NCBI RefSeq assembly: GCF_023277115.1
Contig: NZ_JALQCS010000001.1
Span: 2,598,001-2,662,000 of the forward strand
Reading direction: 5' to 3'
Source of the DNA: Acidithiobacillus acidisediminis
Lineage (GTDB): Bacteria > Pseudomonadota > Gammaproteobacteria > Acidithiobacillales > Acidithiobacillaceae
Length of the DNA stretch: 64,000 bases
Both the position numbers and the translations under genes were made by a program. Each line of letters begins with the position of its first letter. Within the stretch, counting starts at the first letter, position 1. Below, piece after piece: positions 7,124 to 19,481 of this stretch. The notes under the pieces are model-generated. The model ran no database searches, had not been told where the DNA came from, and saw only the letters and a program-made list of their open reading frames with translations.

Positions 7124-7259
7124 TGGCGGGGTCACTGGAACTGGTGCTGGCATCCTGCCTCGCATCGATAGTTGCTACTCGCCCCGTGCTGCGGTACACC
7201 TGATTGATTGGTGAGTCTTTTGACCTGTAGCCGTGCTTCTTGACCCTCGGAGGCAATCC

Positions 7260-8408
7260 GTGCGCGTTCTTATCGTACCCGACCATTTCAAAGGTAGCCT
7301 CAGCGCAGGGGAAGCAGCGGAGGCAATGCACGCAGGCTTTTCCACCATCTTTCCGCATTGGCAGTACCAGTTGCTTCCCTTGGCCGACGGCGGCGAAGGC
7401 ACCTTGGATTTGCTTCTGCAATCCATGCCGGGAAGACGAGTGGTAGCAACCGTGCAGGATCCCCTCGGACGGGAAATCTCGGCTGAATTTGGCTTGCTGG
7501 ACGGGAAGCGTACCGCTTTGATTGAAATGGCGCAGGCCAGTGGTCTGCTGCTCCTGCGTGCTGAAGAACGGAATCCCTTGCGCAGCTCCAGCACGGGAAC
7601 CGGAGAGCTTTTGCGCGCCGCTCTGAACATGGGCTGCACGCGGATCATCCTGGGGATCGGCGGCAGTGCTACCAATGATGGCGGCATGGGTTTGCTGACT
7701 GCTCTGGGCTTACGTTTTTTCGACGACTCCGGGCATCTGCTCACCGCTTCCGGCGCCGCCCTCGAAAAGGTAGCAAAGATCGATACCGAACAACTGGATA
7801 CGCGCCTGCAACACTGCGCGATCGAAGTAATGTGTGATGTCGATAATCCCCTGCTCGGAGAGTCTGGCGCTACCCGAATGTTTGGAAAACAAAAGGGAGC
7901 GAACGCAACCATGCTCGCCTCCCTGGAGGCCGGGATGACAAACTATGCCGACCATCTGGAGCAGGCGAGTGGCATATGCGTCAACTCGATTCCCGGGAGC
8001 GGTGCGGCCGGCGGCGTTGGCGCCGCCTGCCTCGCCTTCTTAGGGGCCAGGTTACGACCGGGCATTGAGGTGCTGGCCGATCTGCTGAACCTGCGCCAGA
8101 AGATTGCGGACGCTGATCTGGTTCTTAGTGGTGAGGGTTGCGTAGATGCGCAGACACTTCATGGAAAAACCATCGCCGGGGTGGCGCAAATCTGCAGAGA
8201 ACTGGGCAAACCCCTGATCGTCCTCGCTGGCTCCCGCTCAGGCAACCCCGATACCCTGCGGGAGGCTGGCATCAGCGTCATCGTCACCAGCCTGCCCGGC
8301 TTGGGCGCGGAGGCAGAACTCTTTGCTGCGGGTGCGGCGCACCTTCGGGAAACGGCACAGAATACCGCCCGCTTGCTAGATCTCGGCATGGAACTGCGGC
8401 GTCCCTGA
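7260..8408 (+). CDS. Glycerate 2-kinase (GarK/GlxK type)
   Basis: A 382-aa glycerate kinase phosphorylating D-glycerate to 2-phosphoglycerate, the final step of glyoxylate/glycerate assimilation. Recognisable blocks are DHFKGSLSAGEAAEAM at the N-terminus, PLADGGEGTLD, GTGELLRAAL, GIGGSATNDGGMG, CDVDNPLLGESGA, PGSGAAGGVGA and GEGCVDAQTLHGK. The start is GTG 7260 with GGAGG six bases upstream; the longer TTG start lacks this. It converges on gdhA and faces the glycolate oxidase operon, fitting a role in recovering carbon from glyoxylate. Confidence 0.93.
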   Translation: MRVLIVPDHFKGSLSAGEAAEAMHAGFSTIFPHWQYQLLPLADGGEGTLDLLLQSMPGRRVVATVQDPLGREISAEFGLLDGKRTALIEMAQASGLLLLRAEERNPLRSSSTGTGELLRAALNMGCTRIILGIGGSATNDGGMGLLTALGLRFFDDSGHLLTASGAALEKVAKIDTEQLDTRLQHCAIEVMCDVDNPLLGESGATRMFGKQKGANATMLASLEAGMTNYADHLEQASGICVNSIPGSGAAGGVGAACLAFLGARLRPGIEVLADLLNLRQKIADADLVLSGEGCVDAQTLHGKTIAGVAQICRELGKPLIVLAGSRSGNPDTLREAGISVIVTSLPGLGAEAELFAAGAAHLRETAQNTARLLDLGMELRRP

Positions 8409-8418
8409 CTACCCCCGT

Positions 8419-9717
8419 CTAGGGATATAGACCGCGCTGTGTGGTAGCGGTCAAGACGCGCTCACATCCCACCACGAGAGCAGCCGTACGCAGGCTGATC
8501 TTGAGTCGTTTGGCAGTGTCCCAGACATGGCCAAGGGCACCGGTCAGGATCTTCTCGAGTTGCGCGTGCACCTCATCCTCACTCCAGAAAAAGCTGGACA
8601 GGTTTTGCACCCACTCAAAATAACTGACTGTCACACCACCAGCATTGCAGAGAACATCCGGCACCACCACGACATCCCGCTCGGCAAAAATATCGTCCGC
8701 TATCGGAAACGTAGGGCCATTTGCACCCTCCAGAATGAGTCTTGCCGAAATCGAACGTGCCCGCTCCGCGGTGATCTGTCCTTCCAACGCCGCCGGGATG
8801 AGAATGTCGCAAGGCACCTTCCAAAAATCTTCCGCCGCCAGAACCTCTGCCGACGAAAAATCTGCCAGACTGCCACCCCTTGCCAAATGTGTCTGCAACG
8901 CAGCTACGTCCAGGCCAGCCTCGGCATAGACCGTGCCTGAAGAATTTTGCACTGCAACCAAGACCGCGCCCGCCTCTACAAAGAGCTTTGCTGCGATCGC
9001 CCCCACATTGCCAAACCCCTGCACTGCAACACGCGCATCCTGCAAAGGCATCTTCAGGCGCCGAGCCACCTCACGTCCGGTGATGAAGACACCACGGCCC
9101 GTGGCTTCTTCCCGCCCCACTGACCCGCCAAGCTGCAGCGGCTTACTGGTCACCACACTGGGGATGGTATGGCCGGCATTGACCGAATAGGTATCCATCA
9201 TCCAGGCCATGATTTGCGCGTTGGTGTTGACGTCGGGAGCCGGAATGTCTTGTTGTGGCCCAATGATAATGCCGATTTCACTGGTATAGCGCCGGGTGAG
9301 ACGCTCGAGTTCCTTGGCGGACAGCATATTCGGCTGCACCCGGATGCCGCCCTTGGCGCCGCCATAGGGTAGATCCACGACAGCGTTTTTCATGGTCATC
9401 CACGCAGATAGTGCCATGACCTCCTCCAAGGTCACCTGCGGGTGAAACCGCACACCCCCCTTGCCCGGGCCACGCGCCAGATTGTGTTGTACACGAAAGC
9501 CCTCAAAATGACCGATGCTCCCATCGTCCAACTCGATGGGCACATCGACAATCAAGGCGCGTTTGGGGTGGCGCAAGGTTTCTACCCAGCGCGATAATTC
9601 GCCCAAATAAGGCAATACCGATTCAATTTGTGATAAATAGGTCTGCCAGGGGCTGGTGGAATGGGAACGAATATAAGACAGGGGTGAGACTAGTATTTCG
9701 TTGGAAGTCAATGGCAT
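8419..9717 (-). CDS. gdhA: Glutamate dehydrogenase (Glu/Leu/Phe/Val dehydrogenase family)
   Basis: A 432-aa oxidoreductase interconverting glutamate and 2-oxoglutarate plus ammonia. The substrate-binding and catalytic lysines are in GPGKGGVRF (K86), WMTMKNA (K110) and PYGGAKGG (K122), and the nucleotide motif is [12 protein letters not shown]. The C-terminus has [16 protein letters not shown]. It lies 71 bases downstream of glcF on the same strand and may be cotranscribed. Glutamate is a usual amino donor for glyoxylate-to-glycine transamination, but no transaminase is present here. The ATG at 9717 has GGAG only two bases away, so initiation may be inefficient. Confidence 0.94.
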
Positions 9718-9788: not shown

Positions 9789-11018
9789 TTATTCCTGCGA
9801 GACGGCCTCTGCCAACAACTCCAGCCAATGGCGCACAGGAACCGCCGCCTCCTGCTGCAAGTGGAGTTGGCATCCGACATTCGCAGTAGCTATCACCTCA
9901 GGTTCAGCGGCCTGCAGATTCCTGAGCTTGCGGGTGCGCAATTCATTTGCCATTTGTGGCTGGAGCAAGGAATAACTACCCGCTGAACCACAACAGAGAT
10001 GCCCATCAGCGACGGGAAGCAACTGATAACCAGCGGCTCGCAGAAGTCCCTCGATCTGGCCGTGCAAGCGCAGGGCATGCTGCAGGGAGCAGGGGTTGTG
10101 CAGAGCAACCCGGGCGCGGGTCTGCCCGGAAAACCGCCAATCGGCGCCAGCCGCCAAGAGCCAGTCTCCGGGATCGCGCGCCAAGGCAGAAATGCGCTCG
10201 GCCTTGGCGGCGTACTGCGCATCGTGGCGCAAGGCCTGGGCATAGTCTTTCAACATGGAAGCACAGCCGCTGGCACTGATCAGGATTGCCTCGGCCCCCT
10301 GCTCTACCCACGGCCACCAGGCGTCGATATTGCGGCGCATGAACCCCAACGCCTCCTCTTCCGCGCCCAAGTGCATGCTCAGGGCGCCACAACACCCGGC
10401 CGCAGGCGCAATTCGCCAGGATATGCCGAGGTGATCGAGGATGGCTTTGAGCGCTGCGTTGGTGTTTGGCGTGCTGACGCTTTGTACACAGCCAGCGAGG
10501 AGTAGCACGCGGGGGCGCTCTGGTACTGGCGACGAGCGTTCTCCAGGCTGATCTGGGCAAGCAGGGATGCGCCGTGCCCAATCGTCGCGCAAAATGTCCT
10601 TGAGCGATTGACCGAGCCACAACAAGGGCCGCAAGCGCTGTGGATAGGGGAATACCTGCCGCATCAAGGCCCGATTGAGCCGATCCGCGGCGGGGCGGGG
10701 CAATTGTCGATCCATCTCTCGACGGGAGATTTCCACCAGTCGTCCGTAGCGAACCCCCGACGGGCAGGTCGTCTCACAAGCACGACAGAGCAAGCAGCGA
10801 TCCAGATGTTCCCGGGTTTCCGCGCTCGTTTCGTGCCCTGCCAGGAAATCTTTGATCAGATAAATACGCCCACGCGGGCCATCCAGCTCATCCCCAAGCA
10901 CCTGATAGGTAGGACAGGTAGCAGTACAAAAGCCACAGTGGACGCAACTGCGCAGGATGCCCTCGGCCTCATCAATGTCTACATCCTGGCGAAATTGGCT
11001 GGCGATCTCGCTTTGCAT
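9789..11018 (-). CDS. glcF: Glycolate oxidase/dehydrogenase iron-sulfur subunit GlcF
   Basis: A 409-aa subunit with two 4Fe-4S ferredoxin motifs: CVHCGFCTATCP (Cys25, 28, 31, 35) and CLLCRACETTCP (Cys75, 78, 81, 85). The C-terminal half carries two CCG-domain motifs, AAGCCGALS and HLCCGSAGSY. It passes electrons from the flavin subunits GlcD and GlcE to the quinone pool at the membrane. Its start is two bases after the glcE stop. Confidence 0.96.
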   Translation of the reverse strand: MQSEIASQFRQDVDIDEAEGILRSCVHCGFCTATCPTYQVLGDELDGPRGRIYLIKDFLAGHETSAETREHLDRCLLCRACETTCPSGVRYGRLVEISRREMDRQLPRPAADRLNRALMRQVFPYPQRLRPLLWLGQSLKDILRDDWARRIPACPDQPGERSSPVPERPRVLLLAGCVQSVSTPNTNAALKAILDHLGISWRIAPAAGCCGALSMHLGAEEEALGFMRRNIDAWWPWVEQGAEAILISASGCASMLKDYAQALRHDAQYAAKAERISALARDPGDWLLAAGADWRFSGQTRARVALHNPCSLQHALRLHGQIEGLLRAAGYQLLPVADGHLCCGSAGSYSLLQPQMANELRTRKLRNLQAAEPEVIATANVGCQLHLQQEAAVPVRHWLELLAEAVSQE

Positions 11019-11020
11019 CG

Positions 11021-12082
11021 TTATAGCTCCGGGTAGAGATGACCGGGATTCAGGATCTGCCGCGGATCGAAGGCGAGCTTCAGACGCCGATGCAGCTGCA
11101 GCAGGGCAGGAGGCAGGGAGGAGAAGGGATCAACCCCTGCTGACCCACGAAAGAGGGTCGCGTGCCCACCATGTTGGCGTGCCACTGCACGAAACTCTGT
11201 TGGATCTTGCGTCGCATGCAGCCAACGGACTGCACCACCCCACTCCCAAACCTGTGGGATCCCCGTCAGAAAAGGGGGAGTTGCCGGCGCCACGGAAAAG
11301 CGCCACAGGGGTGCATCGGCAGCAAAGAAGGGTAAGCGCTGCTCGCGTAGGTCGGCCCAGAAGCGAGTGGCGTCCGCTGGCGCCAGCGGGCTACCACCGA
11401 TCTTGTGCTGTGCCGTCGTTACCGCACCGACGGTCCCCGAGAGGCGCAGGTAGAGCCGATCATTGAGATGGGCGGAAGCGGATAGCGGAAGTGGCTGCAC
11501 TCCCCATTGGCTCCAGCGCTGTAGGGCGGCCTCGGGCGTACACTCCTGCACCAGGGTAATGGTTGCCGGGGCCAGCGGCAGCACCTTGAGGGTGGCCTCG
11601 AGGATGACGCCGAGCGTGCCAAGGGCCCCAACCATGAATCGTGACAGGTCATAGCCGGCGACATTTTTCATCACCTGGCCACCAAACTGCAGATCCTCGC
11701 CCCGGCCGTTGAGAATGCGCATCCCCAGAACCTGGTCGCGCAAAGAACCCGCATAGGGCCGCGCCGGCCCCGAGAGGCCACAGGCGAGGGCCCCACCAAG
11801 AGTGGCCGGTGTACCAAACGCTGGCGGCTCGCAGGCCAGCCCCTGCCCCCGCTCGGCCAGAGTGGCGTTGATCTCTGCCAGGGTCGTCCCTGCTCGAGCA
11901 CGCAGAAACAGCTCCTCCGGACGATAGTCAACAAGCCCGCGGTTGCCGCTGACAGACAGCTGGGCATCAGCCTGCACCGGCCGACCGTAGAAGGACTTTG
12001 TTCCCCCCGCCATAATGCACAAAGACCGGTCGCTGGCGTAGGCATCTTGCACCTGCGCCTGCAGCTCGGCACTGAGATCCAT
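11021..12082 (-). CDS. glcE: Glycolate oxidase subunit GlcE (FAD-binding)
   Basis: A 353-aa FAD-linked subunit shorter than GlcD. FAD_binding_4 features are visible: IMAGGTKSFYGRP near residue 23, RAGTTLAEINATLAERGQGLA, GTPATLGGALACG, and GGQVMKNVAGYDLSRFMVGALGTLG. The C-terminus ends in DPRQILNPGHLYPEL. The ATG overlaps the glcD stop by one base, so glcD and glcE are coupled. Confidence 0.95.
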   Translation of the reverse strand: MDLSAELQAQVQDAYASDRSLCIMAGGTKSFYGRPVQADAQLSVSGNRGLVDYRPEELFLRARAGTTLAEINATLAERGQGLACEPPAFGTPATLGGALACGLSGPARPYAGSLRDQVLGMRILNGRGEDLQFGGQVMKNVAGYDLSRFMVGALGTLGVILEATLKVLPLAPATITLVQECTPEAALQRWSQWGVQPLPLSASAHLNDRLYLRLSGTVGAVTTAQHKIGGSPLAPADATRFWADLREQRLPFFAADAPLWRFSVAPATPPFLTGIPQVWEWGGAVRWLHATQDPTEFRAVARQHGGHATLFRGSAGVDPFSSLPPALLQLHRRLKLAFDPRQILNPGHLYPEL

Positions 12083-13560
12083 CAGAAACGCTCCAGCTCG
12101 GGAAACGGCAACGCACCATGATGGACGTGCATGGCGCCCAGTTCAGCACAACGGTGCAGACTGGGAACCGCCTTGCCTGGGTTGAGGCGTCCCTGCGGGT
12201 CACAGGCGCGCTTCACCCGATGCATCTGCTCCAATTCTGCAGCATTGAATTGCACGCACATGCTATCGAGTTTTTCCACCCCGACGCCGTGTTCTCCGGT
12301 AATGCTACCGCCCACTTGCACACAGAGGGCCAGAATGCGCTGCCCGAAAGCCTCTGCAGCAGCCAGTTGTGCCGGCTGATTGGCATCGTAGAGGATGAGG
12401 GGATGCAGATTACCGTCCCCCGCATGGAAGACGTTGGCCACGGCAAGGCCGCATTCCTGCGACCATTGTTGAATCTGCGCGAGGACTTCCGCCAAGCGTG
12501 AGCGCGGAATGGTGCCATCCATGCAGTAATAATCCGGCGCCATACGCCCTACGGCGGGAAAGGCGGCCTTGCGACCCTTCCATAGCAAGGCGCGGGTCTC
12601 GGCATCGCGCGCTACGCGAATACTGTTTGCCCCCTGTTTCTGCAGCAGAGACTCCACTTGCTGTACTCGCTCCGCCAGCTCCGCGTCACTGCCATCCAGC
12701 TCACAGAGCAGAATGGCTGCCGCCTCGGTTGGGTAGTCGGCGTGAACGAAGGCCTCCGCAGCCTCAATCGCCAGGTGATCCATCATCTCCAGCCCGGCCG
12801 GAATGATGCCGGCGCCAATAATGGCCGCCACCGCATCCGCGGCTGCCTCCACGGCGTCATAGGCGGCAAGCAACACCACCGTGTTCTCGGGCAAGGGCAG
12901 CAAGCGCAGGGTCGCCTCGACTACGATCCCCAGGAGCCCCTCGGAGCCGATGAACAGGGCCAGAAGATCATACCCGGCAGCATCCAGCGCTGCTCCCCCG
13001 AGTTGGAGCAGCTCACCATCGGCGCTGAGGACATCCAGGGCAAGAACGTTGTGCACCGTGAGCCCATATTTCAGGCAGTGCACCCCACCGGAATTTTCCG
13101 CCACGTTACCGCCGATGGTGCAGGCAATCTGCGAGGAAGGATCTGGCGCATAGTACAGCCCATAAGGCCGAACTGCCTCACTGATGGCCAGATTGCGCAC
13201 CCCCGGCTGTACCCGGACACAGCGGTTGTCTACGTCTATGTCCAGGATGCGATTCAAGCGCGCCAGTGAGAGCAGGACGGCACCGGCAACGGGGCGCGCC
13301 CCACCCGAAAGCCCCGTACCGGCGCCGCGGGGCACGACGGGGATCTGATGCTCCTGACAGAGGCGCAGGACGGTCTGCACCTCGTCGCGATCTTGCGGCA
13401 GGACGACGCAAAGGGGTAACTCCCGCAGGACGGAAAGACCATCACACTCATAGGGTTGCAAGGCCTCTTGCCCCAGGCGCAGGCGCTCTGCCGGCAGGGA
13501 CGCCGCCAAATCCTGGAGAAAGGCCTGTTCCGCCGCCGAGTTTTCGCGTTCCATCCTCAT
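12082..13560 (-). CDS. glcD: Glycolate oxidase subunit GlcD (FAD-linked catalytic)
   Basis: A 492-aa FAD-dependent 2-hydroxyacid dehydrogenase of the GlcD/D-lactate dehydrogenase family. The FAD domain shows VVPRGAGTGLSGGARP, VRVQPGVRNLAISEAV, SQIACTIGGNVAENSGG and IGSEGLLGIVVEATL. The C-terminal domain has VFHAGDGNLHPLILYD and GSITGEHGVGVEK, including the conserved catalytic-site histidines. With glcE and glcF it oxidises glycolate to glyoxylate. The start overlaps the kinase stop by four bases (ATGA); ATG 13552-13554 is an alternative. Confidence 0.96.
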   Translation of the reverse strand: MRMERENSAAEQAFLQDLAASLPAERLRLGQEALQPYECDGLSVLRELPLCVVLPQDRDEVQTVLRLCQEHQIPVVPRGAGTGLSGGARPVAGAVLLSLARLNRILDIDVDNRCVRVQPGVRNLAISEAVRPYGLYYAPDPSSQIACTIGGNVAENSGGVHCLKYGLTVHNVLALDVLSADGELLQLGGAALDAAGYDLLALFIGSEGLLGIVVEATLRLLPLPENTVVLLAAYDAVEAAADAVAAIIGAGIIPAGLEMMDHLAIEAAEAFVHADYPTEAAAILLCELDGSDAELAERVQQVESLLQKQGANSIRVARDAETRALLWKGRKAAFPAVGRMAPDYYCMDGTIPRSRLAEVLAQIQQWSQECGLAVANVFHAGDGNLHPLILYDANQPAQLAAAEAFGQRILALCVQVGGSITGEHGVGVEKLDSMCVQFNAAELEQMHRVKRACDPQGRLNPGKAVPSLHRCAELGAMHVHHGALPFPELERF

Positions 13561-14888
13561 TCCGTGCCCCGCAGGCGTCTCCGTGCCAAGGCCAAGGCAT
13601 CGGCATCCCCCACATTACCCGGAAAGATCACCACTGGCAGCGCCGGAAACTGGGCGTGGTTTTCCGGACACTGCAGCACCGAACAGCCCGGCAGAATCTG
13701 TCCCAATACCCGTGCCTGGCGCAGGGCGAGTCCCTGGCTCAGAACGTCATTCGAGGTGATGCCACCTTTACTGATCAAATAGCCCAAGCTCTTCGGCACG
13801 GCTTGCAAAGCGCGCATGAGAAACGCCGATACCGCCGCGCCAAAGGCCAGGCGGGTAGGCTGATCGGCAAACTGCCGTTCGCTGCGACTGGTATAGAGGA
13901 CGATATCCTTGCCATGGGCATGGATCGCCGCCGCCCGCCGGACAATGTCGGCGAGTTGCGTCTCGGCAGCGGCACCCTGGCAACGATCGACGTCCACCTC
14001 GACGCCCTCCAGATCTGGCTCCTGCAGCAAACGTTCCAACTGTTCTGTCGTCTTGCGCACATGCGAGCCGACCAAGATCAGGCCCGGACGGGCATTCCGC
14101 ACCCAGCGCCGCATCTCCGCTGCCGCTACGGGTTGCGGCGGCAAATCCGCCAAGGCCGTCAGCAGGCTCGCGGCACTCCGGAACAGAAAACGTTTGCCTT
14201 GCGCCACGGCCTGTTGCACGTCGCGCGCAAAGGCGGCCAAATCTGCAGGAGTCTCCGCATCCACAACGACGCAAGCGTTGTTCTGCAGGGCAAGGAGGCG
14301 CGGCAGACATCCCCCTTCGCGCAACTCGCCCAGGGAAATCCGTTGCACTGCCGCAGCGGGAATCCGGCCCCGCGTCTTCTCGGCAACGTAGTCCGGGAGA
14401 TAGCTATGATGAAAGGCGAAGACCGAGTCGCGGGCAAATTCCGTCTCGTGCGCGGGGACATCCACACCATTCTGCCGCACATAGTGGATCCCGTTGCGTG
14501 TGGTGCGCCCTCCCTCGAAGAACGCAGGCACCAGAAAATGCGCATCGAAGGGGCCCAGAAGCTCCACCAGGACATCGGTTTCAAAGGGATAATGACCGCG
14601 CAACGTCGAGTCGGAGCGGCTGACCAGGATTGGTGGTGCCTTGGCAGATGCCGCTGTCTCTTGCAGAACTACGCGTAAATTCCCAGCAATCTCGCGCATG
14701 ACTTGCGCCGCCTGCTCTGGCGTCATGGCCCGTGTATTGCTCAGGATGAAGCAAAGCGGCGACGGGTCTGCCAGACCAGCACGCAAGGTCTCCACGTCCC
14801 AGCGCAGGAGCAAGGGACAGGAATGGACGGTCTGCGAACCCGTCGGGTCGTCATCAATGACAATGATCTTGCTTTGCTCTGCGCTCAC
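13557..14888 (-). CDS. Four-carbon acid sugar kinase family protein (DUF1537/OtnK-like)
   Basis: A 443-aa ATP-dependent sugar-acid kinase. The N-terminal substrate domain begins IIVIDDDPTGSQTVHSC and contains SRSDSTLRGHYP and PAFFEGGRTTRNGIHYV. The C-terminal nucleotide-binding domain includes VGSHVRKTTEQL and SKGGITSNDVLSQGL, all characteristic. Known relatives phosphorylate D-erythronate, D-threonate or L-threonate at the 4-hydroxyl. The usual partners (PdxA2-type dehydrogenase, OtnC decarboxylase) are absent, and a ThDP enzyme and glcDEF are present instead. The start is GTG 14888 with GGAGG eight bases upstream. It is coupled to glcD by a four-base overlap. Confidence 0.9.
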   Translation of the reverse strand: MSAEQSKIIVIDDDPTGSQTVHSCPLLLRWDVETLRAGLADPSPLCFILSNTRAMTPEQAAQVMREIAGNLRVVLQETAASAKAPPILVSRSDSTLRGHYPFETDVLVELLGPFDAHFLVPAFFEGGRTTRNGIHYVRQNGVDVPAHETEFARDSVFAFHHSYLPDYVAEKTRGRIPAAAVQRISLGELREGGCLPRLLALQNNACVVVDAETPADLAAFARDVQQAVAQGKRFLFRSAASLLTALADLPPQPVAAAEMRRWVRNARPGLILVGSHVRKTTEQLERLLQEPDLEGVEVDVDRCQGAAAETQLADIVRRAAAIHAHGKDIVLYTSRSERQFADQPTRLAFGAAVSAFLMRALQAVPKSLGYLISKGGITSNDVLSQGLALRQARVLGQILPGCSVLQCPENHAQFPALPVVIFPGNVGDADALALARRRLRGTE

Positions 14889-14903
14889 AGACTGCGCCTC
14901 CGC

Positions 14904-17117
14904 TTAGGCCGACAGGGCTAGGACCTTGGCGACGATAGCGGCGCTGGTCAGGCCATTAAACGCCATCAACTCCCCGGCGCTCGCCGTCGTCTCGCCGCGC
15001 TGCCAGGACAGGGTATCGCGTCGGGCAATGCGGCTGCGCAAGAAGACCGGCTCCAGCGGCGCCGATCCACCGCCACTGATGCCAAGGAGATAGTCCCCAG
15101 CAAAGAGCTGGTGGAACTCTGCATCGGCAAGGAAGCCATGGTCGGGCTCTGCCACCGTTGTCACAGCAACATCCGTCTCGCGATACATCTGGCGCGGATT
15201 GAGCACGCTGACAATACGCACTCCAAAACCGGCATTTTCCAGTTCCGTCTGGGCCGCAAAGACCGGCAGAAGCACCATGTCGCCGGTAACGGCCAAGGTC
15301 ACCGTGCCGCGTGTTCCGGTACTTTCGTGCAGTAGTGCCGCTCCCTGGCGGATAGCCGTGCGCGCCTTGTCCATGGGTAAGTACACCGGCAACGGGCTCT
15401 TCGAGGCAATGATCACCATCACCTTGTTCCGGCTCTCCACGGCATATTCGTACGCTGCCTGCACGGCGTTGGCGTCGCAGGGGTACAGAAGAAAGACATT
15501 CCCGTTACGCATCTGCGCCGCAATATAGCCCTCGATCTCTGGCCGCTGATGGGTCCAACCATTGCGCCCCTGCTCCAATGCCCCGGCGGTAAACATGCAG
15601 ACCACGGCGGGAGTCGGACGGCGCAATTCCGCCATCGCCTGCCCTACGGTCTGTACAATCGGCCAGCCATTGATGACAAAGGACTCATAGGACAGCCACA
15701 GGGAGCGACCGCCAAATAGGGCCAGCCCGGCCGCGAGACCAGCACACGCGTCTTCGTTCAGGGGCTCGTAGACCTGCCCGTTGGGCCGCTGATTGTAGAG
15801 CGGGTCCTCGGTAGGATGGCGGATTTTCAGGGCGTCGTTGATGTTCTTCATCGCCGAGGCCTCATTGCCGTCGGCATTGGTTACAACAAAGCGTCGATCC
15901 TGTTGTCCCAGCCAGGCAACTAGGGCACCAAAGGCTGTAGCGGGCACCGCCTGTTCCCCCACCGCAAAGTCCTGCAGCGGGAATGCGCCCAGAGGCGCTA
16001 GATCCAGCACTTTCTCCGTCACCACCGTCTGGCCAGCGGCGCCGCCACCTGCACGATGCGCGTTTTCCCGCACCACGGCCCAAGCTTCGGGCGCCAGGGC
16101 CAGACGCTCGAGAGCGGCGCGGATCTCCGGAGACTCCGGCGTATCTTTTGGATAGAGATTGTGCGACTTGGCCCCGCTGACGTGCATGCCCGCGCCTTTG
16201 AGTTGCTTGAGGATCAGTGCCGTGTGTCGCCCGCCAAGCGCAGACTCTGCGGCCTTGGCGGTGGCCGCCAACACCGCTTCCATGAAGGCCAGACGCTGCG
16301 GGAAAGAGAAGCGTGCCGAATCGACATACGGCCCCGCTTGCCCGGCATCGTCGAAATCCTTGGCGTCGATGAGAATAACCTCGTCAAAATCATGCGCCTT
16401 CCAGTAGGCAATCATCTCCGCATTGCTCATGCGCGAGACCATGGAGTGGTGCTCCTGACTGAAGCCGTTCCAGACCAGGATGGGCAGGTAATTGGTCACC
16501 TGCGGATAGGCAAAATGAAAGTGCTTCAGGCTGCTCAGCACATAGGGTTCACCAAACCCGCCATCACCAATGGTGACCGGGAAAAGCGTTCCTGGATTCA
16601 GCAAGGCACCTGCCATGGCGAAATGTTGTCCTTGCCCCAAAGGTCCAGCGGGGGCCAGCAGGCCCGGAATCGCGCCAGACAGATGTCCCAACAGACCATG
16701 GCGCTCGCGGAAGCGGGCCATGAAGTCGTTCATATCCTGTATCCCCATCGCCTCCAGGGAGCCATCCAGAAACATCGCACTGTAGAAGCCAGGTGCGTGG
16801 TGACCGACTTCGGTGACGATGTTGGTGTGACCCAGCATCACTAGGGCGGCGTAAGCCTCGACACTGGAGGCGAAACCGCCAGGATGCCCGGACGATTTTG
16901 CGGCACAGACCTGCAGCGTGCAGTAGCGCAGGGCATCAGCGAGGAGCAAGGTCTGATAGATGGCACCTTTATCCGCCGGATCGCGAATAGCCGCAGCCCC
17001 CTCTGCAATCGCCGCCTCTCGACCAAAACGCTCAAATTCCGGCCAAGGGCGCCCATAGAAAAACATCCCTTTGCAAAAAGTCGGGGCGTTGCTGGGTAGG
17101 GATGCTGATTCAGTCAT
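14904..17117 (-). CDS. ThDP-dependent transketolase/phosphoketolase-superfamily enzyme, function unassigned
   Basis: About 737 aa. The N-terminal half reads like transketolase: SSGHPGGFASSVEAY, VGHHAPGFYSAM, and the cofactor motif IGDGGFGEP closed by an Asn 30 residues later in VWNGF. The C-terminal pyrimidine domain is closer to phosphoketolase: VYEPLNEDACAGLAAGLALF, LWLSYESFVINGW, QGRNGWTHQRPEIEGYI. Such proteins are often filed as Xfp-like or xylulose 5-phosphate 3-epimerase without good evidence. It is first in the minus-strand operon with the DUF1537 kinase and glcDEF, divergent from iclR. The ATG at 17117 has no clear ribosome-binding site; a TTG at 17138 gives seven more codons. The reaction is unknown to me. 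Confidence 0.85.
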   Translation of the reverse strand: MTESASLPSNAPTFCKGMFFYGRPWPEFERFGREAAIAEGAAAIRDPADKGAIYQTLLLADALRYCTLQVCAAKSSGHPGGFASSVEAYAALVMLGHTNIVTEVGHHAPGFYSAMFLDGSLEAMGIQDMNDFMARFRERHGLLGHLSGAIPGLLAPAGPLGQGQHFAMAGALLNPGTLFPVTIGDGGFGEPYVLSSLKHFHFAYPQVTNYLPILVWNGFSQEHHSMVSRMSNAEMIAYWKAHDFDEVILIDAKDFDDAGQAGPYVDSARFSFPQRLAFMEAVLAATAKAAESALGGRHTALILKQLKGAGMHVSGAKSHNLYPKDTPESPEIRAALERLALAPEAWAVVRENAHRAGGGAAGQTVVTEKVLDLAPLGAFPLQDFAVGEQAVPATAFGALVAWLGQQDRRFVVTNADGNEASAMKNINDALKIRHPTEDPLYNQRPNGQVYEPLNEDACAGLAAGLALFGGRSLWLSYESFVINGWPIVQTVGQAMAELRRPTPAVVCMFTAGALEQGRNGWTHQRPEIEGYIAAQMRNGNVFLLYPCDANAVQAAYEYAVESRNKVMVIIASKSPLPVYLPMDKARTAIRQGAALLHESTGTRGTVTLAVTGDMVLLPVFAAQTELENAGFGVRIVSVLNPRQMYRETDVAVTTVAEPDHGFLADAEFHQLFAGDYLLGISGGGSAPLEPVFLRSRIARRDTLSWQRGETTASAGELMAFNGLTSAAIVAKVLALSA

Positions 17118-17173
17118 GACACTAGATTTCCATTGCAATAAAGATAACTATGATGGTAGTCGGCAGATCGTGA

Positions 17174-17207
17174 TTCCGCAATAAGGGACGTATTCCACAT
17201 CATGGAA
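17174..17207. promoter_or_regulatory. Putative IclR-type operator, copy 1 (iclR start region)
   Basis: A 34-base site whose left part TTCCGCAATAAGG and central TATTCCAC are identical to the site at 19448-19481. By hand alignment 28 of 34 positions agree. The right end covers the iclR start codon (17202), so binding there would repress iclR; the ThDP operon starts about 57 bases away on the other strand. A related TTCCATTGCAATAAAG lies at 17128-17143. Confidence 0.65.
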
Positions 17208-18005
17208 CAAGATAGAGCGCATTCTGAAAATCGCGGTTCGGTGCAGGTCATTGATCGGCTGTGCCTGCTACTCGATGCATTGGCGCAAGAGGGCGGCAAT
17301 ACCTCCCTGAAGGTGCTTTCCGCCGTTACCGGACTGGCTCCATCCTCTGCTTACCGAATCCTCGCCTCGGCCCTGGAAAACCGGCTACTCGAGCGTGACC
17401 TGCACGGAAACTATCGCTTCGGCACTCGCCTGCTCGACTGGAGTCGACTAATTCATGGTCGGGCTGATCTTCGCGCCCTGGCGCAACCGGCAATGGCGGA
17501 GTTACGCGATGAAATCGAGGAGACAGTCAACCTGACGGTTGAGCATGGCGATGAGGTCCTCTATATCGAACGCGCCATCTCCCCGCGTATGATGCGCGTA
17601 GAGCAAGTCATCGGCTCCCATGCACCCATGCACTGTACGGCTGTCGGTAAACTCATGTTGGCACAGCATGGTTACGATTGGGTGCGTGCCTACGCCAGGC
17701 GATCTGGCCTACCAACCCTCACTGCACATTCTCTCGGCACTCTCCCCGCGCTCTGGAAAGCGCTTCAGCAAGCGCAGGCGGACGGCTACGCGCGCGATGA
17801 CGAGGAGGCCGAGATTGGGGTTGGCTGTCTCGGCGTCCTCATTCACACTCCCCTTCCTTGCCTCATCGGCCTCAGCATCTCCTCCCCCATTCATCGCCGG
17901 AAGGAGGAATGGATACCCTTACTGCACCGGGCCGCAGAGCAGATCGAACAGCGTCTGCAGGGTTTGACGGTGGTGCTCGATCTGAACTCTACCGCTGTAC
18001 GCTAG
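17202..18005 (+). CDS. IclR-family transcriptional regulator
   Basis: A 267-aa regulator. The N-terminal winged helix-turn-helix is seen at about residues 14-75 (VQVIDRLCLLLDALAQEGG, then LAPSSAYRILASALENRLLER). The C-terminal GAF-like effector domain has HCTAVGKLMLA and the usual REIGVGCLG-like block (here AEIGVGCLGVLIHTP). IclR proteins bind small carboxylic acids such as glyoxylate or pyruvate. It is divergent from the ThDP-kinase-glcDEF operon and overlaps the convergent MFS gene by four bases. No ribosome-binding site precedes ATG 17202, and the putative operator sits on it. It is the obvious candidate regulator for both neighbours. Confidence 0.92.
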   Translation: MEQDRAHSENRGSVQVIDRLCLLLDALAQEGGNTSLKVLSAVTGLAPSSAYRILASALENRLLERDLHGNYRFGTRLLDWSRLIHGRADLRALAQPAMAELRDEIEETVNLTVEHGDEVLYIERAISPRMMRVEQVIGSHAPMHCTAVGKLMLAQHGYDWVRAYARRSGLPTLTAHSLGTLPALWKALQQAQADGYARDDEEAEIGVGCLGVLIHTPLPCLIGLSISSPIHRRKEEWIPLLHRAAEQIEQRLQGLTVVLDLNSTAVR

Positions 18006-19300
18006 TGACTCAGGCCCGCAGCGCAGGACACGGAATCCTCGGCTTCGCCCTCGATCTCGATGGGCAGACGCGTCTGGGTAGCGAGATAGTTCACGCCGAG
18101 CCCGACAACGGCCAATCCGACCATCACCCAGAAGACGCCATTCCATCCCACGGTGCGGATGATGACAGACGACACCACTGGCCCGATGGCGCTCACCGAA
18201 TTGGAAATCACGCCGATTGCGAAAGCACCAGCGCCCATCGTCGCAACCGGGAACATATTACATGGCGACGCCCAATAGTTCGGCGGAGTTGCCATGGTGC
18301 AAGCCACTACGAGGGCAGAAAGCAACAATAGGGGATAGGAAATCGGCGCGATATACAGAATCATCAACGCCCCGACAATGATGAATCCATTGGCAACGCT
18401 GATGACGCTCAATCGGGCATTAACGAAATTCCGATGGGTATTGTCGCGTTTTGCCCAATAATCGCCAAGTAGCGCCCCCAATATCGCAGCAGCAAAGCCC
18501 ATCAGCCCCCAGATGAACATCACATTGCCAGTTTCTTCCGGCTTGTAGCCAAGGTGATAGGCATAGATTGGCAAAAAACCGCCGATGGTAAACAGCGTCC
18601 AGTTGTTTGGAATTTGCACGATTCCCATGATCCAGGTCATTGGATACGACCACAGCTTATGCTTACGATGATCTGCCTTAGATTTCTTGATACCTTCCGC
18701 ATGGCTTTTCGCATCACGTGCAAAGACAAAATAGACCACCGCTCCCAAAATCATGATAGCAGCAGTGATGAAATACACCGCTTGCCAGCCTAAAGATGCA
18801 AGGTCGCCGGTAATCACACCGCCAACTGCCCCACCCAGGGTGATTGCGCCAAGCATTGCCGCCAGAGAAATCCCGCGTTGACTGGAACGAAACCATCCTG
18901 CCAACTGCAGGGAAAACAACGCAATCATCATGATCATCAAGCCCTGAAGAAAACGAAGGACGATCAGCAAGATGATAGACTGCGTAACCGGCATGAGGAT
19001 AGGGATCAGAATTTGTGGGACAATCAAAAACAGCTGTGCAACCAGGACACCCAGGCGGATCCGCGTATCAAATATGCCGCCATGACCAAGAAAAAAAGCG
19101 ATGAACAAACCAACTGAGAAGGCATCCACACCAGCGGTTGACAGAGTCGCCACGGAAACGTGCATTGCTGCCGCCATGGCCGGTGCTGATACCCCAAACG
19201 AGGTAAGGGAAATAAAGCTGGTAGTCATGATGACCCCAGTGATCGCCGCCATGACCCAACGATATGGGGATGAGTATTCGGGCATTTCTTGTATTGACAT
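18002..19300 (-). CDS. MFS transporter, likely organic-acid permease of the IclR cluster
   Basis: A 432-aa inner-membrane protein with about 12 hydrophobic segments, a FARDAKSHAEGIKKSKAD central cytoplasmic loop after the sixth, and RIRLGVL at the loop between segments 2 and 3. I start at ATG 19298-19300, which has AGGAG eight bases upstream; the frame is open further upstream without a site. Its promoter region carries the second copy of the putative IclR operator. Base composition looks richer in A and T than its neighbours. Glycolate, glycerate or another sugar acid is a guess from context. Confidence 0.88.
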   Translation of the reverse strand: MSIQEMPEYSSPYRWVMAAITGVIMTTSFISLTSFGVSAPAMAAAMHVSVATLSTAGVDAFSVGLFIAFFLGHGGIFDTRIRLGVLVAQLFLIVPQILIPILMPVTQSIILLIVLRFLQGLMIMMIALFSLQLAGWFRSSQRGISLAAMLGAITLGGAVGGVITGDLASLGWQAVYFITAAIMILGAVVYFVFARDAKSHAEGIKKSKADHRKHKLWSYPMTWIMGIVQIPNNWTLFTIGGFLPIYAYHLGYKPEETGNVMFIWGLMGFAAAILGALLGDYWAKRDNTHRNFVNARLSVISVANGFIIVGALMILYIAPISYPLLLLSALVVACTMATPPNYWASPCNMFPVATMGAGAFAIGVISNSVSAIGPVVSSVIIRTVGWNGVFWVMVGLAVVGLGVNYLATQTRLPIEIEGEAEDSVSCAAGLSH

Positions 19301-19402
19301 GATCACGTCTCCTACCCTGGTTGCGATATCCTCGTAAGGAACGAGGCGTATATACCGCAAGGGAGAAGATTATTGTTATCTTATATTTTTATTCACTAAA
19401 AC

Positions 19403-19417: not shown

Positions 19418-19447
19418 TTGCAAAAGAGAGTAGGGCAACATTTTGTT

Positions 19448-19481
19448 TTCCGCAATAAGGTATTTATTCCACCATATGGAA
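19448..19481. promoter_or_regulatory. Putative IclR-type operator, copy 2 (MFS promoter)
   Basis: TTCCGCAATAAGG, then TATTTATTCC, then ACCATATGGAA. It shares 28 of 34 positions with the site over the iclR start. It lies about 150 bases upstream of the MFS start codon, between the MFS and MBL genes. Part of it, TTCCACCATATGGAA, is itself a near-palindrome. Confidence 0.6.

Follow-up and report, generated by a model that had tools for sequence, protein, structure and literature searches.

A conserved, Rubisco-associated glycolate module with an uncharacterised family of thiamine diphosphate enzymes in Acidithiobacillus acidisediminis and its relatives

In the 64,000-nucleotide stretch of Acidithiobacillus acidisediminis DNA analysed here (the window, positions 2598001-2662000 of its contig, in a 2.8-Mb genome), an operon of five minus-strand genes joins a thiamine diphosphate (ThDP)-dependent enzyme and a sugar acid kinase to a glycolate oxidase, and we find it to be a Rubisco-associated glycolate module, real and conserved, with an uncharacterised enzyme family. 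Its first gene (14904-17138, with an ATG at 17117 and 737 amino acids from there) encodes the ThDP-dependent enzyme, which has the transketolase/phosphoketolase fold and forms a family of its own. After a gap of 15 bases follows the gene of a kinase of the DUF1537 (four-carbon acid sugar) type (13557-14888), which carries both DUF1537 domains in Pfam (SBD_N, 195 bits; NBD_C, 136 bits). The kinase gene overlaps glcD (12082-13560) in an ATGA, glcD meets glcE (11021-12082) in a TGATG, and two bases separate glcE from glcF (9789-11018). All three subunits of the glycolate oxidase GlcDEF are present, in order, with FAD-oxidase and iron-sulfur domains according to Pfam; GlcE (PRK11282, 461 bits) and GlcF (PRK11274, 563 bits) exceed their NCBIfam cut-offs of 284 and 333, and GlcD reaches 84% and 95% of its two (PRK11230, 754 bits for a cut-off of 897; TIGR00387, 537 for 568). 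An earlier account of this DNA, which we call the sequence-only reading, had described such a five-gene operon, and the coordinates of the open reading frames (ORFs), Pfam and NCBIfam bear out its gene order and junctions.

Divergent from the operon lies the gene of an IclR-family regulator (17202-18005, plus strand; IclR_C, 112 bits; best NCBIfam match BhcR, 127 bits with a cut-off of 350), followed by that of a major facilitator superfamily (MFS) carrier (18002-19360, minus strand; MFS_1, 92 bits). At the other end, a glycerate kinase gene converges on the operon (7233-8408, plus strand; TIGR00045, 450 bits, cut-off 168), and these three neighbours lie where they had been placed before. Absent from the earlier account is a Glu/Leu/Phe/Val-type dehydrogenase gene (8419-9717, minus strand; ELFV_dehydrog, 261 bits), 71 bases behind glcF and between glcF and the glycerate kinase, which is probably a neighbour and not core to the module.

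Scanning genome contigs with the ThDP protein yielded 154 relatives, of which the best 80 were kept; the ThDP ORF is present in 79 of these 80 loci. The kept relatives are 66-86% identical to it in the best segment and come from Acidithiobacillus, Gallionella, Sideroxydans, Sulfuriferula, Mariprofundus, Allochromatium, Thiorhodococcus, Thiococcus and many metagenome-assembled genomes, the nearest named one among the best 80 of the 154 being that of Acidithiobacillus sp. YTS05 (86%). Where the contig is long enough, the DUF1537 kinase gene directly follows the ThDP gene in 71 of 74 relatives; in the three others the sequence stops 0.9-1.3 kb past that gene, which leaves no room for a complete kinase ORF. 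An IclR gene in divergent orientation precedes the ThDP gene in 67 of the 76 relatives with enough contig. Neighbouring genes were called in 82 long loci as best BLAST matches above 70 bits, with family scans on examples only; three of these loci duplicate others, and the non-redundant count of 80 includes the window. In this non-redundant set the kinase lies near the module in 78/80, GlcD in 44/80, and GlcD or LutB in 58/80. Mapped on the ThDP tree (80 rows), the state "GlcD nearby" requires at least 18 changes, hence the association with GlcD has been kept or remade repeatedly. A chance neighbourhood is ruled out by the 154 relatives, the near-constant kinase and this repeated association; the arrangement goes far beyond chance, and it is not specific to one strain. 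In locus L154 (G358), the ThDP gene has no adjoining kinase gene, and a kinase is kept some 750 kb away in the same genome.

The sequence-only reading had suggested tabulating co-occurrence with Rubisco. Across 369 genomes sampled evenly from the class and searched for the ThDP family at a threshold of 1e-100, at which weaker homologues would not show, the family was found in 33 genomes and Rubisco in 187, some of the Rubisco matches being weak. The Pfam family used for Rubisco, PF00016, also matches Rubisco-like proteins. Rubisco is present in 32 of the 33 ThDP-positive and in 155 of the 336 ThDP-negative genomes (Fisher p 2e-9; overlap compiled by eye from the two match lists), and the sole carrier without it is an 86%-complete assembly, so that within this sample the ThDP enzyme is nearly exclusive to genomes with Rubisco. 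For a closer comparison, the 33 carriers were set against 47 hand-picked, mostly complete genomes that are Rubisco-positive and ThDP-negative. The DUF1537 kinase accompanies the ThDP enzyme in all 33 carriers and occurs in 1 of the 47 (p 1e-21), while GlcF exceeds its cut-off in 31/33 carriers versus 33/47 comparison genomes (p 0.01).

Glyoxylate carboligase (Gcl), which had been noted as missing from the window, is missing from the whole genome as well and was found in none of the 33 carriers; the genome's own 588-amino-acid thiamine pyrophosphate enzyme is an acetolactate synthase by family scan. We had considered a mutual exclusion between Gcl and the ThDP enzyme and rejected it, since Gcl occurs in only 4 of the 369 genomes although 187 have Rubisco-family genes, which makes its absence from the carriers a fact and not a contrast. 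Malate synthase was not found in A. acidisediminis or in 24 other carriers (25/33 in all); it occurs in 8/33 carriers and 11/47 comparison genomes (p 1).

What kind of enzyme, then, is the ThDP protein? It meets the looser Pfam domain cut-offs of both parent families (XFP, 45.7 bits; XFP_N, 39.0; Transket_pyr, 34.4) and falls far short of the NCBIfam models for phosphoketolases (at most 117 bits, cut-offs 777 and more) and for transketolases (at most 49 bits, cut-offs 488 and more). Its pairwise identity is 20-25% to phosphoketolases from the carrier genomes and 21-23% to E. coli transketolase TktA, about the same distance as that between phosphoketolases and TktA (20-21%). An AF2 model with a mean predicted local distance difference test score (pLDDT) of 81 aligns in Foldseek over most of the length of both families, with query-normalised template modelling scores of about 0.7 to phosphoketolases and about 0.6 to transketolases. 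His78, His106, His145, His319 and His523, together with the Mg-binding Asp185, have counterparts in both TktA and phosphoketolases, whereas only phosphoketolases provide a match for Asn217 and a reliable one for Glu455. One E. coli glutamate column in our active-site alignment (Glu398) is probably misaligned; the catalytic glutamate itself is textbook knowledge. The enzyme thus has the superfamily fold with its ThDP/Mg motif and catalytic His and Glu. That it might be an ordinary phosphoketolase or an ordinary transketolase, which would have undone the earlier proposal, is ruled out by the scores, the identities and the coexistence of a true phosphoketolase (above 130 bits) in 22 of the 33 carriers, A. 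acidisediminis not among them. The family also looks discrete: a search of 299 genomes of the phylum returned three matches at 1e-40 or better, the own genome included and all of them full-length, and no member was found on plasmids at 1e-20.

The active site is a mixture of the two parents. With phosphoketolases (XFP, PF03894/PF09364) the enzyme shares Gln516, Asn519 and Lys573 besides the full-length fold, the His and Asp columns and Asn217, whereas its GHPG and GPLGQG motifs are transketolase-like; with TktA it shares the fold and the five histidines, but it has Asn, Lys and Gln at TktA Asp469, Arg520 and Leu466. The first two of these TktA positions, 469 and 520 (occupied here by Asn519 and Lys573), are among the three altered in an E. 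coli transketolase variant that was evolved to accept other aldehydes (PMC5073344). At position 518 the family has an invariant Arg, in contrast to the His of phosphoketolases and the Glu of TktA; by its place in the model near the substrate channel, in a part that is poorly modelled, this Arg518 could bind a carboxylate.

These mixed features bear on the idea that the enzyme is a divergent phosphoketolase, making acetyl phosphate from ketose phosphates so that acetyl-CoA could meet glyoxylate through malate synthase. Its best matches in the PDB, by sequence and by fold, are phosphoketolases, the three residues common to XFP point the same way, and in one relative (L143) a malate synthase gene lies directly downstream of the kinase gene. 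Against this stand the low identity to phosphoketolases of the very genomes that carry it, the true phosphoketolase beside it in two thirds of the carriers, the transketolase-like motifs and the 25 carriers that lack malate synthase; moreover, such a reaction gives the kinase no role. We consider it quite unlikely.

The kinase scores 94 bits in the NCBIfam model for D-threonate kinase (cut-off 450), is 25% identical to E. coli YgbK and has a single weak match, 4xfr, in a PDB sequence search. Known DUF1537 kinases phosphorylate C4 acid sugars, 3-oxotetronate among them, on the way to dihydroxyacetone phosphate (DHAP), as set out in parts of PMC12540250.

Judged by the company of its genes, the module very probably serves glyoxylate. 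The link to glycolate and glyoxylate recurs among the relatives in different guises, with GlcDEF, malate synthase A or G, or genes resembling tartronate semialdehyde reductase near the module. All the steps downstream of glyoxylate, the direction in which they run and the binding partner of IclR are inferences. The reading that we prefer, with a probability of roughly 45%, is that a dedicated transketolase-like enzyme uses glyoxylate as acceptor, that phosphorylation and decarboxylation turn the 3-oxotetronate so formed into DHAP, and that the module is a further natural route of phosphoglycolate salvage. GlcDEF would oxidise glycolate to glyoxylate, the glycolate being imported by the carrier or arising from what Rubisco makes as an oxygenase. 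Acting as a transketolase, the ThDP enzyme would then transfer a C2 unit of a ketose phosphate to glyoxylate. From the known chemistry of the transketolase fold, the expected product of C2 addition to glyoxylate is 3-oxotetronate (HOCH2-CO-CHOH-COOH). Its HOCH2-CO-CHOH end would make this product usable by a kinase together with a DHAP-type aldolase: the DUF1537 kinase would phosphorylate the terminal CH2OH, and loss of CO2 from 3-oxotetronate 4-phosphate would lead to the same DHAP enediolate as is formed by class II aldolases, either on an aldolase-type enzyme where one is encoded or else spontaneously or on another enzyme. In sum, glyoxylate, xylulose 5-phosphate and ATP would give glyceraldehyde 3-phosphate, DHAP, CO2 and ADP, in a redox-neutral route without ammonia that would return triose phosphates to the Calvin cycle, with IclR controlling operon and carrier. 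The joining of glyoxylate to a C2 unit by the ThDP enzyme, followed by phosphorylation of the C4 acid by the kinase, is a prediction consistent with the data, and among the mechanisms considered we tentatively take the 3-oxotetronate route to DHAP to be the best single one.

In favour of this route speak the co-occurrence with Rubisco and with the kinase (in G358 even unlinked), the lack of Gcl and in most carriers of malate synthase, the recurring GlcD, the malate synthase genes near the module in four relatives, and the aligned active-site histidines with the invariant Arg518. Further support comes from five relatives (L031, L044, L057, L074 and L144) in which an F_bP_aldolase gene lies directly behind the kinase gene. 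Class II aldolase-like genes were found by BLAST in 6 of the 82 long loci, or 7 of 80 with L144, where an overlapping ORF masks the gene. L031 has the order ThDP enzyme, kinase, aldolase, glcD, glcE, glcF and reductase, and the aldolase and glcD genes of L057 share one base; the L057 protein stays below all NCBIfam aldolase cut-offs except that of TIGR00167, which it barely reaches (217.3 versus 215.6 bits). One decarboxylase of the DUF1537 pathways, 2-OtnC, is of the F_bP_aldolase type (PMC12540250, in part). Among the closest known systems are these pathways, OtnK/OtnC and 2-OtnK/2-OtnC, which lead from L-threonate to DHAP. They have in common with our module a DUF1537 kinase and, in those five relatives, a 2-OtnC-class F_bP_aldolase after it, and differ in that the C4 acid would here come from the ThDP enzyme and glyoxylate and not from oxidation of a tetronate. 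Near the module, none of the 82 long loci has a best BLAST match to OtnC, OtnI or LtnD, nor to Gcl, Hyi, isocitrate lyase or TktA. Of the usual DUF1537 partners, OtnC was not found near any of these loci, but a gene of the 2-OtnC class follows the kinase in the five relatives; the own module has no adjoining gene of either type.

Two further relatives have an F_bP_aldolase gene across the IclR gene from the module (L037, 6731-7906, minus strand; L141, 8535-9713, plus strand), a class II aldolase fused C-terminally to a Dabb domain. Among the 33 carriers, 11 have a module-type second aldolase, 10 of them Dabb-fused and one short, and the own genome is not one of the 11. One of the 10 fused aldolases is linked to the module; the nine others lie away from it and are 44-73% identical to the linked ones. 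In three carriers, L197 (G311), L198 (G334) and L199 (G335), the aldolase-Dabb gene lies about 10-13 kb from the gene of the Rubisco large subunit.

A number of observations weigh against the 3-oxotetronate route. No dedicated decarboxylase was found in the own genome: its one F_bP_aldolase is of the Calvin type by likeness (judged by eye), beside a pyruvate-kinase-like gene, and the stronger of its two Aldolase_II matches is MtnB, which leaves the decarboxylation step without an assigned gene. A second aldolase with clear likeness to the module-side ones is present in only 11 of the 33 carriers, in a tally that covers carriers only, and 2-OtnC is described on a 2-oxo and not a 3-oxo compound. 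The reductase-like (7/82) and MOFRL (4/82) neighbours are left unexplained, and the route keeps only one of the two glyoxylate carbons. Confidence in the AF2 model drops below a pLDDT of 50 in two stretches, residues 139-160 about His145 and residues 513-524 about Arg518, and an alignment of the IclR pocket does not discriminate between effectors. Neither Gcl nor malate synthase sets the carriers apart from ThDP-negative autotrophs. We found no match in the open-access literature for a transketolase using glyoxylate, and Allochromatium vinosum is reported, in a section of PMC4213376, to have C2-cycle genes, so that some carriers may use another route.

The reductase and glycerate kinase neighbours of some relatives keep alive a carboligase-like reading, in which the ThDP enzyme would be a non-homologous glyoxylate carboligase, converting two glyoxylate to tartronate semialdehyde and CO2, glycerate would come from a GlxR-like reductase, and its phosphorylation to phosphoglycerate would fall to the DUF1537 protein or to a classical glycerate kinase. 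Besides the want of Gcl in all 33 carriers, this would account for the GlxR-like neighbours of the module, seen in 7 of the 82 long loci (those of L031 and L048, which were scanned, exceed the TIGR01505 cut-off), for the MOFRL glycerate-kinase-like genes in 4 (the single example scanned has its best matches in glycerate 2-kinase models, below their cut-offs) and for the glycerate kinase gene beside the operon in the own genome, L002 and L159. Yet the other 75 long loci showed no GlxR nearby, the DUF1537 kinase, always present, would be superfluous if a glycerate kinase adjoined the operon, this reading offers no explanation for the aldolase right after the kinase, and we know of no enzyme of the transketolase/phosphoketolase fold that acts as a glyoxylate carboligase. 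The glycerate kinase, moreover, has no operator-like site. On balance this reading is unlikely. The glycerate kinase had been pointed out as a convergent neighbour and is one, but it is probably not core to the module, because it lies near it in only 2 of the 82 long loci (L002 and L159) and does not share the operator.

A palindrome, nATTTCACAnTGTGAAATn, recurs between the IclR and ThDP genes, scoring above 99% of shuffles in 63 of 69 regions with a matrix trained on the same intergenic regions that it scored. Operator-like sites above 12.5 bits stand upstream of 67 of 79 ThDP genes and of 0 of 565 other genes. Within the window, a 35-base composite of paired motifs, its pattern written from the two window copies themselves, occurs in the IclR/ThDP gap, reaching the first IclR codons (17173-17207), and again upstream of the MFS gene (19447-19481), and in none of 100 shuffles; these two copies are the window's only operator-like sites above 9.5 bits. 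A search for the half-motif gave 20 matches where 17 were expected, so single half-motifs mean nothing. Weaker sites, above 10 bits, are also found upstream of the MFS gene in L002 and L159, a score reached by 3 of the 565 other genes. The shared motif ties the carrier to the operon's regulator, and from the distribution of these sites the MFS carrier probably belongs to the regulon and the glycerate kinase does not. We also attempted to read glyoxylate sensing from an alignment of the IclR pocket with E. coli IclR, AllR and KdgR; the pattern is shared with KdgR and is uninformative.

Transporters near the module raise the question whether it is instead catabolic, serving an imported sugar acid that yields glycolate or glyoxylate. 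The kinase would then take the imported acid as its substrate in the first step, and the ThDP enzyme would act on an intermediate further along. Such transporters are the MFS carrier here, tripartite ATP-independent periplasmic (TRAP) DctP in 12/82 and LivK of the ATP-binding cassette (ABC) type in 11/82 long loci, with an aldehyde dehydrogenase in 9/82. Operator-like sites precede the MFS gene in three genomes, DctP in 2 of 12 loci and the aldehyde dehydrogenase in 1 of 9; another two, assigned to LutB in the count, fall within LutA. The presence of Rubisco in 32 of 33 carriers speaks against a catabolic role, as do the lack of LtnD- and OtnI-like genes and the fact that the type of transporter varies while the ThDP enzyme, kinase and IclR stay. 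We regard it as improbable.

Among the remaining neighbours, LutB-type genes lie near the module in 16 of the 82 long loci, 14 of which lack GlcD in the stretch covered, and LutABC-like proteins might provide an alternative 2-hydroxyacid dehydrogenase. These LutABC-like iron-sulfur/LUD loci are L009, L011, L013, L014, L015, L016, L020, L024, L028, L034, L051, L063, L068, L074, L081 and L143. An ABC branched-chain-type transporter and an aldehyde dehydrogenase are encoded downstream of the kinase in L009, L011, L014, L015, L025 and L039; the one dehydrogenase scanned, that of L009, exceeds the cut-off of the model for CoA-acylating methylmalonate-semialdehyde dehydrogenase. Malate synthase genes near the module are of type A in L143 and of type G in L068, L074 and the shorter locus L070.

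Two known pathways offer themselves for comparison. The glycerate pathway (Gcl-Hyi-Tsr-glycerate kinase) of Cupriavidus necator likewise serves glyoxylate from GlcDEF in an autotroph, but it depends on Gcl, found in 0/33 ThDP carriers. The malate cycle, described in parts of Claassens et al. 2020 (PMC7486775), is likewise an alternative phosphoglycolate salvage in chemolithoautotrophs, but malate synthase is missing from 25 of the 33 carriers, the own genome included; in Table 1 of that study, nine Acidithiobacillales genomes, all with Rubisco, are entered at 0% for malate synthase. In the open-access literature, which leaves subscription journals mostly outside its scope, we found no description of the operon or the reaction and no biochemistry on the proposed steps, and nothing on the operon in PMC5418355, in PMC3770913 or in the parts of PMC4213376 that were available. 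The proposed glycolate salvage route is thus apparently undescribed.

How many chemolithoautotrophs dispose of the product of Rubisco oxygenation is an open gap, for which this conserved, Rubisco-linked pair of enzymes, often encoded next to glycolate oxidase, supplies candidate genes. The rarity of Gcl across the class, set beside Rubisco-family genes in 187 of 369 genomes, makes the handling of glyoxylate by ThDP-negative autotrophs likewise a question. The reaction of the thiamine enzyme might serve in photorespiration bypasses. If the proposed route holds true, it would be a further natural form of phosphoglycolate salvage in iron-, sulfur- and light-driven Calvin-cycle bacteria that lack Gcl and mostly lack malate synthase.

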